Both the position numbers and the translations under genes were made by a program. From a bacterium (GTDB lineage: Bacteria; DYJV01; JALVYZ01), in contig JALVYZ010000166.1 of assembly GCA_027037705.1 (NCBI GenBank), forward strand, positions 1-12,972: DNA of 12,972 nt. The letters are read 5' to 3'. Below, one piece after another: positions 1 to 12,486 of the stretch; the first letter of the stretch is position 1, and every line of letters begins with the position of its first letter. Below the pieces are notes generated by a model that was given only the letters and a program-made list of their open reading frames with translations, had not been told where the DNA came from and made no database searches.

Positions 1-2
1 AA

Positions 3-1370
3 GATTCTAATGTTGATTTTGGTTACAACAGAAAATCAGAAGCTGAAAGAGATGTTGATGAAATAGAATTTGGATTTTCATACTTTTTAAATTCAATGTG
101 GTCATTTAAAGGAAAGATAAGTTACAAACAGATAGATAGAGATAATCCATTACAGGTTTTTGAAAATCCAACATTTAATGCAACAACTGGCAATCTTGGT
201 AAAGTCCAGCTTGATGAATACGATTATGGAGATACAGATATTACAGAAGTTAATTTCTCAACTTATTTCTATCCTTTTTCAAGATTGCATGGAATGTTCA
301 GTTTTAAATATACAAATATTGATGACCCATTTAAAAATCCACATGCAAAAGGAGAAAAGGATAAATTATTAAATTCAGTTTTAACTCCAATAATTGTTGG
401 ACCAAAAATTGATGTAACAAAAGGGGTTCCTGATATTTTACAGGGTTATCTAATTTTTGGAAAAGCTGCAGGAGATAAACCAGTTACCTATAATGTTGTA
501 AAACTAACTTCCCCATTTACTGTAGCTGGTAAAACTTTTCCAGCAGGATTTTTAATTGAAACAGCAGATGGAACTATTCCAGTTGCAGTGGAAGGGATGG
601 CTACAGGTTCTACTTATTCTGAATTTTTCAGACCTTTTAATAGAATTGAAGATGGAACAGCTCTACCAGATGATGCTTATACATTTAAATTTAATTTTGA
701 CTGGAATTTAACTGATAAATTTAGTGTATCTCCAAATGTTATTTATACAAATGAGGATAGCGATAGTACTGCTTGGGAAAGAAAAACATGGAATGCCGGA
801 ATTAATCTTTCACTTATGGTGAATGAAAAATTTAATGCATACTTAAGCTATAACTATATCAACCAAAAGACCACAACAGAAGTTTACTACTCGTTCTTTA
901 ACGGTTGAGCTGGAACAGCTTTTACACCCCAGGTTGGGTGTGGAAAAGATGATATTGATGATACTTTAACAAATCATAATATCACAGTTGGATTTAATGT
1001 GAATCCAACAAAAAGATTAAATCTATTCGCTAATTTCACATACACAAAATCTGAACAGGAATTTGATAATATTGATATTCCAAACAAAATTAAAGAATTA
1101 CAAAAAATGGGAGGAGCTGCTGGACCAAATTGGGCGGCACAAAATTTTGCATGGGGAGCTGTAAATCCTGATTTTTCAAATATTGATGATTGGACAGATT
1201 TAGAGATGGATCAAATTCAATTAAGTATCGGAGGTTCATACAATATTACAGATAGGATAAGCTTACTAACAACATTTACTTACGAAGACTATAATGATAA
1301 AGAATATTACATTGAAGATGACGATGGCTCATATTTTGCGGTAAATGCAGCAATTGAATATAAATTTTAA
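3..1370 (+). CDS. Outer-membrane beta-barrel selenoprotein, MtrB/GSU2204-like, 5'-truncated by the window edge
   Basis: The frame is open from the window edge and gives 455 residues if the TGA at 906-908 is read through as selenocysteine (residue 302 of the visible part). Alternating short amphipathic strands with Asp/Asn-rich turns and a C-terminal phenylalanine (IEYKF) indicate an outer-membrane beta-barrel. It is a paralogue of the barrel encoded at 9043-11436: IDRDN, IDDPF and TDKF recur in the same order, the segment after the TGA aligns (U-A-G-T-A-F-T-P-Q-V-G), and the C-termini match (DGSYFAVNAAIEYKF against DGTFYSANIGIQYKF). Codon use and composition do not change across the TGA. A conventional gene caller would split it into 96-908 and 999-1370. 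The N-terminus, including any signal peptide or CXXCH motif, lies outside the window. Probable role, by family, is the porin sheath of an outer-membrane electron conduit. The partner cytochrome is not visible. Barrel call is confident; exact function is inferred. Confidence 0.82.
906..908 (+). other. In-frame UGA, predicted selenocysteine codon
   Basis: This TGA interrupts the barrel frame between F-N-G and A-G-T-A-F-T. The frame stays open for another 153 codons of clear barrel sequence. The paralogue has a TGA at the aligned position (9523-9525), so a sequencing error or a random nonsense mutation would have to have occurred twice at the same site. A cysteine lies 11 residues downstream and could pair with Sec. 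Recoding as Trp is possible in principle, but TGG is used for Trp throughout and TGA ends other genes here. Confidence 0.8.
924..941 (+). promoter_or_regulatory. Predicted bacterial SECIS hairpin of the left barrel gene
   Basis: A compact hairpin follows the UGA. One fold pairs 924-926 with 939-941 and 928-931 with 935-938, bulges C927, and leaves a GGT apical loop at 932-934. The competing fold is an unbroken 6-bp stem (924-929 with 936-941) with loop CAGGTT, which can extend outward by G-U and A-U pairs to 920/945. The distance from UGA to the GGT loop is 23 nt. Bacterial SECIS elements usually place a G-containing small loop about 16-37 nt after the UGA, where SelB binds. Confidence 0.68.
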
Positions 1371-2389: not shown

Positions 2390-3034
2390 TTAAAAGCCTA
2401 AATTCTCTCCGATTATTAATACTTCAATATCACTTAATTTAGGCTTTTTATCCATTATTACTGTAACTCTACATATTCTTCCTGTACTTTTACAATCAAC
2501 ACATACTCCAGTTTCAGCACATGGAGTTTTTGCATTTAATCTCTTTGCATTCATTGGAGCAGCAATCTCTTTTATTCTATTTAATGCAGAATGGACATCC
2601 TTTGTTACTTTATTAATACCACATATAATTAATACCTTTTTTGGACCAAATATCATTGCACTAACTCTATTCCCAACTCCATCAATATTTACTATTTTCC
2701 CATCTTTTGTGATTGCATTTGTAGAAGTTATAAATAAATCACATGTTAGTTGCTTTTTTCTAATTTCAAGCTTTTTTTCCATTGAAAATTCAGGTCTGTT
2801 ATGATTTAAAATTTCTTTTCCCATATTTTCTGCTAATTTATCAATCATTAAGTCTTGTAATACAGTCATTGAGCCACCAAAACCTATAGAATGATAATTT
2901 TTTAATAGCTTTTTTATATAATCAATTGCCTCTTCCCTATTTTTGAAATATTTTGCACAAAATTCATTTTTTTCAAGATTTTCAACAACTTTTTTACCAA
3001 TTTTTTCATTGTACCATTCTTTTACTATTTGCAT
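2390..3034 (-). CDS. LUD-domain (DUF162/lactate-utilization-type) protein
   Basis: 214 aa. It matches the stand-alone LUD family found in many anaerobes: the GFGGSMT segment at 51-57, a central strand region with STNAIT, and N-I-D-G-V-G-N-R at 116-123. Near the C-terminus four cysteines lie at 172, 178, 181 and 188 (CAETGVC..C......C), a spacing that could hold an Fe-S cluster or metal. This cysteine set is typical of the short LUD proteins rather than of LutB or LutC, whose ferredoxin domains are absent. The biochemical function of the stand-alone members is not established; the lactate link comes from LutB/LutC homologues. The start is well supported by AAGGAGA upstream of the ATG. The K+ channel gene ends 1 nt upstream, so the two are almost certainly co-transcribed and translationally coupled. 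Confidence 0.85.
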   Translation of the reverse strand: MQIVKEWYNEKIGKKVVENLEKNEFCAKYFKNREEAIDYIKKLLKNYHSIGFGGSMTVLQDLMIDKLAENMGKEILNHNRPEFSMEKKLEIRKKQLTCDLFITSTNAITKDGKIVNIDGVGNRVSAMIFGPKKVLIICGINKVTKDVHSALNRIKEIAAPMNAKRLNAKTPCAETGVCVDCKSTGRICRVTVIMDKKPKLSDIEVLIIGENLGF

Positions 3035-3860: not shown

Positions 3861-4979
3861 TTATGTTTCCTCTGTATAATATAAAACAGCTTTAATATCA
3901 TCTTCTTCTTCAAGTTGTCCACCAAGAGCAGAAGCCATAATACCAAAAGTCGCCATTATTTTTGAATAATGAATAATCGGTAATTTACCAGAAAGATTTG
4001 CCCAACCAAGCAATACTTTTTGAGGTAAAATGTATATTATAAAAGTAGAAATTATGAATAAACTTAGCCAGAATGAAATAATTCCAATTAAAATAGTTCC
4101 AATTATTACAAGTTGGGATCTTACAGCTTGTTCTTTTAACTTATCAGTTTTAGCAACTTTTTGTAAATTTTGCCCCAAGTATAAAGACAATGTTGAAAGA
4201 GTAATTACAAAAAATATAGAAAAATTTATCCATGATTCAGATAAATGTGCACCTATTTCCCAGGCCTCAGCACTTAAAAATAAAAATATTATAGAAATAA
4301 TTGTTATAACAGTAAATTTTCCCAGCCTTCCCATTAACAACCAAGATTTATTAACTAATATTTCTATTAAAATTTGAAACCCTTCATTTAAAAGTAATTT
4401 AATATAAAATAAAAATTTATTAATCTTTTTGCCATTAATTTCTTCTAATCTTGGATCAGCAATATTTTTTAAATATTGAATAATTTCTTCCTTTTCTTCA
4501 TCTGTCCATTCTAAAATAATTTCATCTTTCCAGAAAGATAAAGGTTTCATAACTGAATTTTCTCTATGTTGTAACCCCCATAAATGTCCAAGACAATGCA
4601 TTACTATTCCAATTATTGCATCCATATTATCCTGAAATCTTGATATACTTATAACAGCAACTTCTAACATATTGGAAGGCACTGCATTTACAGTGTCATT
4701 AAATCTATTCTTCAGTGGTTTTTCAGTAAAAAGTAATATATAATCAAAATCATACTCTAATTTTATTGATGAACTTAATTCAAGAAGGTCTATTGGATCT
4801 GCAGGAATTGATAATGGTAAATGTTTTCTTTTTATAATATTAAAGACCCAGTTAAATTGAGGAAATAGGTCATAAAATTTTTGATAAATAGTTTTTGAAA
4901 TTTCAATAATTTTTCTTTCTAAATCTTTTTCCTCAGCATCAAACAATAAACCAATTGAAATTAAATTATTTTTATCCAT
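3861..4979 (-). CDS. Membrane protein with N-terminal metzincin-like zinc site lacking the catalytic Glu
   Basis: 372 aa from the ATG at 4979. An in-frame ATG at 5009 would add ten residues but lies deep inside the preceding gene and has no ribosome site, while 4979 gives an ordinary 8-nt stop-start overlap. The N-terminal half looks like a soluble archaemetzincin-type protease domain. At residues 128-138 it reads HCLGHLWGLQH, the metzincin HExxHxxGxxH pattern with all three zinc-ligand histidines and the glycine, followed by a Met-turn-like SVMKP at 142-146. The general-base Glu is replaced by Cys129 (TGT). The C-terminal half has membrane segments at about 221-237, 252-268 and 290-320, so the domain is membrane-tethered. 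It is sandwiched between an unrecognised gene (8-nt overlap) and the K+ channel (0-nt gap). It may be a zinc-binding pseudoprotease or an enzyme with altered chemistry; substrate unknown. Confidence 0.72.
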   Translation of the reverse strand: MDKNNLISIGLLFDAEEKDLERKIIEISKTIYQKFYDLFPQFNWVFNIIKRKHLPLSIPADPIDLLELSSSIKLEYDFDYILLFTEKPLKNRFNDTVNAVPSNMLEVAVISISRFQDNMDAIIGIVMHCLGHLWGLQHRENSVMKPLSFWKDEIILEWTDEEKEEIIQYLKNIADPRLEEINGKKINKFLFYIKLLLNEGFQILIEILVNKSWLLMGRLGKFTVITIISIIFLFLSAEAWEIGAHLSESWINFSIFFVITLSTLSLYLGQNLQKVAKTDKLKEQAVRSQLVIIGTILIGIISFWLSLFIISTFIIYILPQKVLLGWANLSGKLPIIHYSKIMATFGIMASALGGQLEEEDDIKAVLYYTEET

Positions 4980-5559
4980 TAAAAAAGCCAATCCCTTTAA
5001 AAAATTCATTTTTAGAATTTAAAATATCTTCTTTCATTTTTAACACATAATCAGGTCTTCTACCGCCTTTCCAACGAGGCATACCACCTAACCATACATA
5101 ATTTAATAATTCAAAAAATGATTCTTTAGTAAATTCATACTCAGCAATATGAGTATAACCAGAACTATTTAATAGAATTATTTTTATATCTTCTTTTACT
5201 CCAAAATTTTTAATTAAATTCTCAACTACTTCTCTATTTTTAAATCCTTCTGGATCCTGTTTAAAATTTTTTAGATCATCTGGAAACGGAAATATTTTAT
5301 AAACTTCACCGATAAAGCCACTATATCTAATTTTATGAATGGCTCCCATTAAATCTCCAATCTTTTCATAGGGAATAAAATATCCATTAATAACAAAATT
5401 AAAACTTTGAACATTATCAATTTTTGCAAGTTTACTAATACAGTTACAGAAGTCAGAAGCAAAAAAGAAATGTTGTTCCAGTAAAAGTAAGTCTATTTTA
5501 ATATTAAAAAAACCAAAAGCTATATTTCCAAAATTTACAGATTCAAAAGATAATGGCAT
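4972..5559 (-). CDS. Conserved-looking hypothetical protein, first gene of the channel/metzincin cluster
   Basis: 195 aa; I do not recognise the family. There is no signal peptide or clear membrane helix, although the N-terminus is rich in hydrophobic and aromatic residues (FGNIAFGFFNI, LLLLEQHFFFA) in an alternating pattern that suggests beta strands of a soluble domain. It contains a Cys pair (DFCNCI, residues 37 and 39) and a basic glycine-rich stretch near the C-terminus (GGMPRWKGGRRPDYV). It overlaps the start of the metzincin-like gene by 8 nt, so the two products are probably made together and may interact. There is no Shine-Dalgarno sequence before the ATG; a TATAAT at 5572-5577 ends only 12 nt upstream, so the mRNA could have a very short leader or the gene may depend on readthrough from pcm. 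Reality of the gene is supported by tight packing; function is unknown. Confidence 0.7.
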   Translation of the reverse strand: MPLSFESVNFGNIAFGFFNIKIDLLLLEQHFFFASDFCNCISKLAKIDNVQSFNFVINGYFIPYEKIGDLMGAIHKIRYSGFIGEVYKIFPFPDDLKNFKQDPEGFKNREVVENLIKNFGVKEDIKIILLNSSGYTHIAEYEFTKESFFELLNYVWLGGMPRWKGGRRPDYVLKMKEDILNSKNEFFKGIGFFNG

Positions 5560-9042: not shown

Positions 9043-11436
9043 TTAGAACTTATATTGAATTCCTATATTTGCAGAATAGAATGTTCCATCTAAATCACCA
9101 TATACATATTCTTCGTCATCATTGAAATCAGTTAAATTAAAAACTCCATAAATTCCCCAGTGCTCATTAATATCAAAGTTTACATTTAATGTTAAATTTA
9201 AAATTGAATAATCTAAATCTGAATAATCATCAAAACCTGCATAATCAAGAGTTTTTCCTCCATCAGAAGAAATATATGTAATATAAAATTTTGGAGGGGC
9301 AAAACCATGAATATCTTGATCTTTATCTATGAAATTTACACTTGGGATAACGAAATGTGGAGTATCCATTTCAGCTGTTGCCTTTGTGTAAGTCCCGTTT
9401 AATGAAATATTAAAATTTTTTGTTGCTTTAAAATCTAAATTAGCTAAAAATACATTCATTTCATTTTCATATTCAATTTTATCACATGCAGAACCGACCC
9501 GGTCTGTAAAAGCATGACCACCTCAGCCACCATACAATGCAACGCTTATTTTTGACTTCTCTTCATATTTTGCGTAATTATATCCAAAAGTAAAAACTAA
9601 ATTTTTTGTTAAAAATAATGTCGAATCAAAACCAACCATGTAATCATTAGCATCCCAATCTGTATTTCCTTCATCGTTGTCTTTATCAGAATATATTCCA
9701 ATTAAGGATAAATTAAATTTATCTGTAGGCATAAAGTTTAAGTTTAGTTTATAATCATAAACTTCTGATGGTGAAACAGATCCATTATATGTTCTCAAAT
9801 CGTAAATTTTTGTATAAGCTGGCATTCCACCATAGCTTGTAATTGGTAATGGCTTCATGACAGTTGTTTGATCATACATTAATGTTTCTGGGATGCAACC
9901 AGCCTCTGGCTGTCCAAAAGGGTCATCAATATCTGAATATGCAAATTTAAATCTTCCAGAAAATTTATTAAATGGTTTAAAATCAAACCCAAATTTAAAT
10001 TTATTTAATTCTGTTTCCTTTTCATCTGGATAAACTTCATAATTATCCCTATCAATATCTTTATATTCATAACCTAATCTGATTTTATATCTATTCTTCA
10101 TAAATCTATATACTAAGTCAAATGAAAATTCATACTGATCTCTATCAATTGCAGACTTTCTTACAAAATCAAATTCTACTGGTTGGCCTGTTGCAGCGTT
10201 ATAATACGCTTTTGTTGGATCTGTAATTGGATTACCATTAGGGTCAACACCATTATAAGCATCTCCGTTTAAATCGACAAATACATCATCACTATCTATA
10301 TCGATATATCTAAATTTTGCTGATAATGTTAATTTTCTATTCAAAAGATGTGTTGTTAATCTTGTTCCAAATGTAGTTTGATCAATTTCAGGATCAGAAT
10401 CATTGTAACCATCATTATTTTTTATATTACTGTCAACAAAAGTCGCAGATAATGTAGTATAATAAGGTAAATCTAATCTCATCTTTATTGTATCCATATG
10501 TTTTTCAGACTCAGGAGTTCTCTGAACCTCTGCACTTGTAGCGTATGTGTCAGGATTCAATCTTGGTTGGAAAATTTTGTATTTTTTTTGGCTTATATTC
10601 CATAAACCTAATAGATTATCAAATTGTGTTGTTGGTGTTGTTCCATCAGTTTCAAATGTTCTGTACGTATGAGAATAGCTTAAATAAACAGGACCTAATG
10701 TCATATTAATTCCACCAGAAATATCTCTTGTTCTTTCATCAATATTTTTTCTTAAGCCTCTAACATGGCATAACGTACATTTACCAACCATCACAGTTTT
10801 ATGTTCATATCCTTTTCTTGACTCATTTCTACCAGCAAAAAATAATTTTACATTTTCTAAATTAGGTATAGAAAAAACTGTTTTAAATTTAGCTTCTGTT
10901 CTTCTTATATAATAATCTTTACCCACTGCAGATTTTTCATTTTCAAATTCAAACCATTGTGCACCAGGAGAACCACTCCCATTATCAAAAGTAAAAGGAT
11001 TTACTCCATAGACTTTACCATCTGGAGAATTTACAAGAGGAATTTTTTTCATTGCAACAGCAGGTTGGAAATTATTTTTATCAAAATCTATAAACAATTT
11101 ATCATAACTCTTTCTGTGATAAAGTCTATTATAGGAAAAATCTACATCAAGATGCCTTAATAAATTTCCTTTTATTTTTAAATCATTAGTGGATTCTCCT
11201 TCATAATTCCCTTCAACATAAATGTCTGAAGTTGAATTAAAAGCTTTTAATTCAACATTTCCAGCAGGAGAAGAATCATCTTCTTTATATTCCGCAGCTC
11301 TATCTAATTCGTCATTATCACCTTGAATATATGCACCAATCCCAACTTTACCACTAATATTTTTTTCTCCTGCAAATACAGGAATTGAAAGAACTAAACT
11401 TATAGTCATAATAATTAATATTTTAAATTTTTTCAT
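9043..11436 (-). CDS. Outer-membrane beta-barrel selenoprotein with one CXXCH motif, MtrB/GSU2204-like
   Basis: 797 aa if the TGA at 9523-9525 is read as selenocysteine (U638). A Sec-type signal peptide (MKKFKILIIMTISLVL...) with probable cleavage after VFA at residue 22 is followed by a long run of amphipathic strands and turns, ending in Phe797 (IGIQYKF), as in outer-membrane barrels. A single haem-attachment motif CTLCH lies at 220-224, unusual for a barrel. After U638 comes G-G-H-A-F-T-D-R-V-G-S-A-C, then 150 residues of further strands; Cys651 could partner the Sec. The start is supported by AAAGGAGGG before ATG. The gene lies 15 bp downstream of the decahaem lipoprotein gene, the arrangement of porin-cytochrome conduits (MtrA with MtrB). 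By that analogy it sheathes the cytochrome in the outer membrane. A standard caller would report 9523-11436 and 9043-9459 separately. What the Sec does is unknown. Confidence 0.87.
9489..9506 (-). promoter_or_regulatory. Predicted bacterial SECIS hairpin of the right barrel gene
   Basis: Reading the - strand, CAG (9506-9504) pairs with CUG (9491-9489) and ACCG (9503-9500) with CGGU (9496-9493). U9492 is bulged and the apical loop is GGU (9499-9497). The UGA ends at 9523, so 23 nt separate it from the loop, identical to the paralogue's hairpin. Both loops fall across the codon boundary before the conserved Val. The bulged U is on the 3' side here, whereas the E. coli fdhF element has it on the 5' side, so SelB contacts may differ. 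Confidence 0.68.
9523..9525 (-). other. In-frame UGA, predicted selenocysteine codon (U638)
   Basis: TGA follows A-L-Y-G-G and precedes G-G-H-A-F-T in an otherwise uninterrupted 797-codon barrel gene. The same position is TGA in the paralogue (906-908). The first Met after it (9459) has no ribosome site and starts 21 residues inside the conserved region, so independent translation of the tail is unlikely. Confidence 0.82.
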
Positions 11437-11451
11437 TACTATCCCTCCTTT

Positions 11452-12486
11452 TTATCTTGTTAGTCCTCTACCATGACTTGGAATGGATAACGATGGCAAA
11501 TCAGATCCGTGTACCGCTCCATGACAAGTTGTACATTTTGTTCCCATAAAAATTTGAGTTGTTCTTGGATTAGGAATACCCTCTATTTTTTGAGAAGTTT
11601 TATTTATATTAGGATTAAAAGGAATAGTACCACCTGGATTCATTTTTACATTAGGAGATTGAATAGCTGTGTGAAAATGCATTTCATGACATTGCAAACA
11701 TAAAAATGGTTCATTTTTCTTTAGTAAATTATTAGCCACAGTTCCGTGAGGATCATGACAGATTGTACAATCTTCAACAACAGGCTCATGTTCAAAAGTA
11801 AAAGGACCTTGATATCTTGTATGACAATTCAAACATAAATCTGTTAATCTTTCATCTGTTTTTAAATTATTAAGAAGACTTCCATGATTAGCATGACAAT
11901 CTGAACATTTCATTTTTCCTTCTTTTACAGGATGATGTGTGGGATAGTAAGATTTAGCTTGTATATCTTTATGACAGCTAAAACATAAATCAGGCTCTTT
12001 CTTTATTAATAAATATTCATTATGATTGTTATGAACTTTATGACAATCTACACAAGCAATATCATTCAATGAATGTTCAGAACCATTCCAATCATTATGT
12101 TCATCACCAGTATGACATCTTAAACATATTGCACTTGATGCTACTGCATCAACTTTTTTTGGATTAATAATTTTTGATGGATCTTCTTCATCAATATGAA
12201 CACTTCCTGGTCCATGACAACTTTCACATCCTCTTTGACCAGTAGGAGTTTCACCTGCAATTATTCTTCCATGCACATTTGCTTTAAAACTATTCACATA
12301 TTCTTCATGACAGTCTGCACAAGCCTTCGTACCAACATATTTAGCTCCTGGAGCTACTACTGGAATTTTAAGAAGAGATTTTCTTGAATTTTGAATTCCT
12401 TTTTGACAAACTTGATAACCACATGAAGAGATTAAGATCAAAGAAATAAACAAACATCCAACTAAAAAAATTTTTTTCTTCATCAT
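11452..12486 (-). CDS. Decahaem c-type cytochrome lipoprotein (DmsE/MtrA-like)
   Basis: 344 aa. The signal peptide ends in a lipobox (I-S-S-C22), so the mature protein is a lipoprotein. Ten CXXCH haem sites begin at residues 56, 87, 121, 145, 168, 194, 218, 240, 263 and 318, the count and overall spacing of the MtrA/DmsE family of periplasmic electron carriers. The segment GAKYVGTKACADCHEEY and the following CESCHGPGSVH are typical of that family. Expected role: accept electrons from the inner membrane or periplasm and pass them through the barrel made by the next gene, or the reverse. The N-terminal lipid is unlike classical soluble MtrA; which membrane it faces is not decidable here. MM start: the first ATG (12486) has GGGAG 6 nt upstream, the second (12483) 9 nt. 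An in-frame TGA lies just upstream of the first. The next gene's ribosome site begins at the stop codon, so the two are coupled. Confidence 0.95.
   Translation of the reverse strand: MMKKKIFLVGCLFISLILISSCGYQVCQKGIQNSRKSLLKIPVVAPGAKYVGTKACADCHEEYVNSFKANVHGRIIAGETPTGQRGCESCHGPGSVHIDEEDPSKIINPKKVDAVASSAICLRCHTGDEHNDWNGSEHSLNDIACVDCHKVHNNHNEYLLIKKEPDLCFSCHKDIQAKSYYPTHHPVKEGKMKCSDCHANHGSLLNNLKTDERLTDLCLNCHTRYQGPFTFEHEPVVEDCTICHDPHGTVANNLLKKNEPFLCLQCHEMHFHTAIQSPNVKMNPGGTIPFNPNINKTSQKIEGIPNPRTTQIFMGTKCTTCHGAVHGSDLPSLSIPSHGRGLTR

Follow-up and report, generated by a model that had tools for sequence, protein, structure and literature searches.

The window, the whole 12,972-nucleotide stretch of DNA that was analysed, contains two genes that each carry exactly one in-frame TGA (Table 1). 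The gene near its right end is complete, and the gene at its left edge is partial. The two proteins share 31% identity in the protein alignment, and within it the two TGA codons occupy the same position: ALYGG-U-GGHAFTDRVGSACD in the right protein and SFFNG-U-AGTAFTPQVGCGKD in the left. This confirms the original prediction that two diverged genes keep a UGA at the same aligned site. The motif proposed with it, U-x-G-x-A-F-T-x-x-V-G, needs a small correction: the wider-family motif is G-U-[GA]-[GN]-x(5)-Q-V-G-S followed usually by x-C-D, and the A-F-T part is not general across that family.

Table 1. Features of the two barrel loci (positions in the window)
Feature	Position	Strand	Description
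Right gene, GSU2204-family outer-membrane beta-barrel (seleno)protein	9043..11436	-	797 aa with UGA as Sec; CXXCH at residues 220-224; predicted Sec638
In-frame TGA of right gene	9523..9525	-	codon 638, predicted Sec; invariant in relatives
Predicted bSECIS upper stem-loop, right gene	9489..9506	-	CAGACC-GGGUC-GGUUCUG, with a single bulged U; aligns with the covarying hairpin; one of the weakest in the set
Left gene, second GSU2204-type (seleno)protein	1..1370 (frame 3-1370)	+	455 codons in the window; 5' part beyond the window edge
In-frame TGA of left gene	906..908	+	predicted Sec
Predicted bSECIS stem-loop, left gene	924..941	+	ACACCC-CAGGUU-GGGUGU
GSU2203-family (OmcK-type, MtrA/DmsE-like) decaheme c-type cytochrome	11452..12486	-	344 aa, 10 CXXCH; directly upstream of right gene, co-directional

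The right gene scores 448.3 bits against NF041027, the "GSU2204 family CXXCH-containing (seleno)protein", above the curated cut-off of 350. The left gene scores 119 bits on a fragment of 455 residues; of the other members of its clade, L041 reaches 450 bits and L042 404. Only the left fragment exceeds the cut-off of the Pfam MtrB_PioB model (PF11854; 52.9 bits, cut-off 23), and both proteins fall below that of TIGR03509 (240 bits), with 36.2 bits for the left fragment and no score for the right protein. The CXXCH of the right protein is also found in all Sec-containing relatives that cover the region; the corresponding region of the left gene lies outside the window. The family is listed among the known selenoprotein families in a 2026 review (PMC13188914), and an MtrB/PioB family outer membrane beta-barrel selenoprotein is listed in a 2022 review (PMC9312934). 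The main text of the 2008 paper cited by the review for the GSU2204 family (PMC2398784) names neither GSU2204, nor a porin, nor the outer membrane. Expression of both GSU2203 and GSU2204 rises in Geobacter on hematite and on magnetite (PMC4070692). NF041027 was a recognized selenoprotein family before this analysis, so the phenomenon has precedent, and both window genes are new members of this family rather than a new kind of selenoprotein.

The decaheme cytochrome encoded upstream of the right gene scores 443.5 bits against NF041028 ("GSU2203 family decaheme c-type cytochrome"; cut-off 325) and matches chain 6r2q_A of the Mtr complex in the PDB (E 1.6e-43). The sequence library's name for this chain, "Cystathionine beta-synthase", does not fit an entry for the Mtr complex and is probably a mistake in the label. 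As read from its sequence, the cytochrome has a lipobox-like N-terminus, and it is probably a lipoprotein. In almost all relatives whose flanking sequence is long enough, a decaheme gene adjoins the barrel gene, and the flanks examined contain no further protein with at least five CXXCH motifs, such as MtrC. A second GSU2203-family decaheme gene (404.6 bits) lies at the end of another contig (L019, G000:C63, 1-1223), with the opening 65 codons of a barrel gene after it. That contig has no end overlap with the start of the window. It probably carries the beginning of the left operon, with its decaheme upstream of the left gene, an assignment made only because this decaheme is closer to the one upstream of L041 (58% identity) than to that of the window (43%). 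Elsewhere in the window, the reverse-strand gene at 3861-5009 encodes a protein with an HxxxHxxGxxH motif (HCLGHLWGLQH), like that of zinc proteases of the metzincin/archaemetzincin type, and with hydrophobic segments after the motif. The reverse-strand gene at 2390-3034 encodes a 214-residue protein and is co-directional with the adjacent hydroxyacid dehydrogenase gene. Neither product has an NCBIfam match.

Of the apparatus for selenocysteine insertion, the genome encodes a tRNA-Sec with anticodon TCA (82.3 bits); the C-terminal 441 residues of SelB, cut by a contig end; and SelD (345 bits), which has one in-frame TGA of its own and is itself a predicted selenoprotein. The SelD genes L045 (G000:C202) and L046 (G001:C91) each have the in-frame TGA near the N-terminus. 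SelA was not found with two models in this genome, which is 92.8% complete in 496 contigs; the sister genome contains a full, intact SelA.

One alternative is that UGA is reassigned genome-wide to Trp or Gly. No point in favour of this reading was found, and several stand against it. All eight remaining genes of the window lack an in-frame TGA and use TGG as the Trp codon, and three of them terminate with TGA, bearing out the original reading of TGA as an ordinary stop at 1441, 3036 and 5670. Widespread in-frame TGA is thereby excluded among the window genes, which are the scope of the count. In addition, the detected tRNA-Trp carries anticodon CCA, and anticodon TCA belongs to tRNA-Sec. Reassignment is thus improbable in the extreme.

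A second alternative is that the UGA is a true stop, leaving a truncated barrel and a downstream sequence that is either a relic or a separate product. The use of TGA as a terminator in other window genes and the missing SelA would agree with this; the pattern of constraint around the site argues the other way. Relatives were drawn from whole genomes and named contigs. TGA is present in every family relative that covers the site: 18 aligned sequences, both window genes included, and L055, giving 19 distinct sequences. The codon is always UGA and never UAA or UAG. Protein identity between the right gene and its nearest relative is 52.5% before the UGA and 53.3% after it; between the left gene and L041 the values are 40.2% and 40.5%. 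In ten pairs, the two sides of the TGA resemble each other in amino-acid identity and in nonsynonymous divergence. In closer pairs dN after the UGA is far below dS, and in the L035/L039 pair dN is 0.164 before the TGA and 0.075 after it, with dS at or near saturation. These comparisons exclude a loss of selection after the UGA. The segment after the UGA also encodes the last five barrel strands and the C-terminal KF. Taken with these observations, a true stop is very improbable.

The internal UGA would instead be decoded as Sec, and the RNA downstream contains a candidate bSECIS element. A hairpin begins ~15 nt 3' of the TGA, mostly as GUGAGCC-AGGUU-GGCUCAC or a variant of it. In 16 sequences, 85.7% of cells are paired, compared to 66.8% in shuffles, and the covariation score is 0.405, compared to 0.136. 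None of 500 shuffles reaches either value, slid registers score far lower, and five of the seven pairs have changed on both sides. In most genes the hairpin is more stable than ~98% or more of synonymous recodings, with the exception of L027 (91%). L049 and L055 have a longer Sec loop and a hairpin of GGCACC-GUGG-GUGCC type in another coding register, with a GU-containing apical loop kept.

In folds of 28 nt for the two window genes, the left-gene hairpin is at -12.5 kcal/mol, with 0.3% of synonymous recodings equally stable, and the right-gene hairpin at -6.4 kcal/mol, with 1.7% equally stable. Over 54 nt in the right gene, an alternative pairing at -8.8 kcal/mol is the MFE structure, and the predicted hairpin is not. 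The right-gene hairpin contains the sole CGG among 144 Arg codons counted in the window. Published bSECIS criteria (PMC13188914) specify: a loop of 3-9 nt; a stem of 4-16 bp; a spacing of 16-37 nt; a G within the first two loop positions; and an MFE of at most -7.5 kcal/mol. Measured against these, the left gene has a spacing of 21 and -12.5 kcal/mol, with the G third in the 6-nt loop of its MFE structure. The right gene has a spacing of 22 and the G first; its hairpin is at -6.4 kcal/mol and the region at -8.8. The apical AGGUU and GGGUC loops and the spacing resemble the published pattern, with these reservations for both window genes. An Rfam scan of the window found no SECIS element, and all its hits lay far under the gathering scores. 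Taken in aggregate, equal constraint on either side of the UGA, the covarying hairpin and the Sec machinery of the genome support the original proposal of selection on recoding. Decoding by the standard bacterial SelB/tRNA-Sec/bSECIS system is well supported at the level of sequence.

In a tree built on the C-terminal half of the barrel proteins, the right gene groups with the sister genome (support 100/98), and the left gene groups with L041 and L042, which belong to another phylum-level lineage (support 99/99). By this phylogeny, the two genes come from two old, separate Sec-containing clades and are not recent or simple duplicates of each other. Both clades retain Sec, so the UGA shared by the window genes is explained by long retention and not by a recent duplication. 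No relative was found in viral contigs.

A structure model of the right protein suggests where the predicted Sec lies. The model is a 26-strand barrel with a mean pLDDT of 61.9, and its best structural match in the PDB is MtrB (6r2q_B; Z 24.2, rmsd 3.7, 583 residues aligned), the next best match having a Z of 15.6. A profile search for a sequence relative of the barrel in the PDB found none. The strands of the model are joined in strict alternation by turns of 2-6 residues and by loops that are mostly longer. The predicted Sec is located within a 13-residue loop joining strands 21 and 22, and both this loop and the CXXCH loop belong to the longer-loop series. In outer-membrane barrels, the longer loops are usually extracellular. 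Both loops would presumably be on the extracellular face; as each has a pLDDT below 50, this placement follows from strand alternation rather than from the modelled loops themselves.

The most probable explanation, held with high confidence as a whole, is that these are MtrB-like GSU2204 barrels in which UGA is read as Sec, that each is paired with a decaheme cytochrome as a conduit, and that the selenol may have a role at the outer mouth. Gene order, family membership and fold suggest that each barrel and its GSU2203-type decaheme would form a two-protein porin-cytochrome conduit across the outer membrane. In the predicted topology, Sec would be at the outer mouth, and the long, presumably extracellular loops and the CXXCH loop would share its face. 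Hypothetically, its most likely role would be that of a redox-active or metal/heme-binding selenol where electrons exit or enter the cell. A more specific version is rather unlikely: that the surface selenol and a heme bound at the CXXCH, which would share a face, make up a terminal redox or ligand site within the barrel itself, giving a conduit of two proteins that operates without a separate MtrC-type surface cytochrome.

The chemical role of Sec may also be different from redox activity. The protein could be a selenoprotein in which Sec is structural or serves as a heme or metal ligand, a possibility to be taken seriously though not the favoured one. None of the 19 sequences has a Cys form at the Sec site, and there is no universally conserved partner Cys, both of which are consistent with such a role, as is the CXXCH loop on the same predicted face. 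Geobacterales are thinly sampled among these sequences, so Cys forms may occur there. In the more distant barrels L051-L053, the aligned site is neither Sec nor Cys. A conserved Sec-Cys pair was considered as a general feature and rejected: the equivalent of Cys651, downstream of Sec, is present in 11 of 18 sequences, and a simple selenenylsulfide pair is therefore not general. Against a structural or ligand role stands the low confidence of the CXXCH and Sec loops in the model, and heme or metal ligation is conjecture.

It is unusual for a putative electron conduit to have Sec in its barrel, and a literature search found no experimental study on its role in such a barrel. Sec is invariant in 19 sequences from several phylum-level lineages, without Cys forms, and is predicted to lie at the outer mouth; together these points make the importance of selenium chemistry for extracellular electron transfer a proposal that can be tested.

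Several known systems have related features. The OmcKL conduit of ANME-partner sulfate reducers (PMC10553843) likewise combines a porin with an OmcK-type cytochrome and has no further adjacent periplasmic cytochrome; selenocysteine is unmentioned in the main text of that paper. ExtKL of Geobacter (NF040886) is a proposed selenocysteine-containing cytochrome (PMC5877670). Like the barrels, it has a predicted selenocysteine and is encoded in an electron-transfer gene cluster, but it is a multiheme cytochrome rather than a barrel and belongs to another gene cluster. The MtrB/PioB barrels of the MtrCAB and PioAB conduits (PF11854, TIGR03509; PDB 6R2Q) have the same barrel fold and an adjoining decaheme MtrA/DmsE-like partner. 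In contrast to these, the proteins described here have a Sec-bearing loop, score below the TIGR03509 cut-off and have no additional multiheme protein of the MtrC kind in the fetched flanks. The closest correspondence is to the GSU2204 family itself, with which the right gene shares a score over the cut-off, the CXXCH and the GSU2203-family decaheme neighbour; the family model stops just short of the Sec site. The present case differs in its AT-rich lineage, from a phylum represented here by two genomes, in having one copy from each of two clades within a single genome and in the partial left copy. To what was known of this family, the analysis adds SECIS covariation, the two-clade origin, the lack of Cys forms in the sample and the predicted surface position of Sec.
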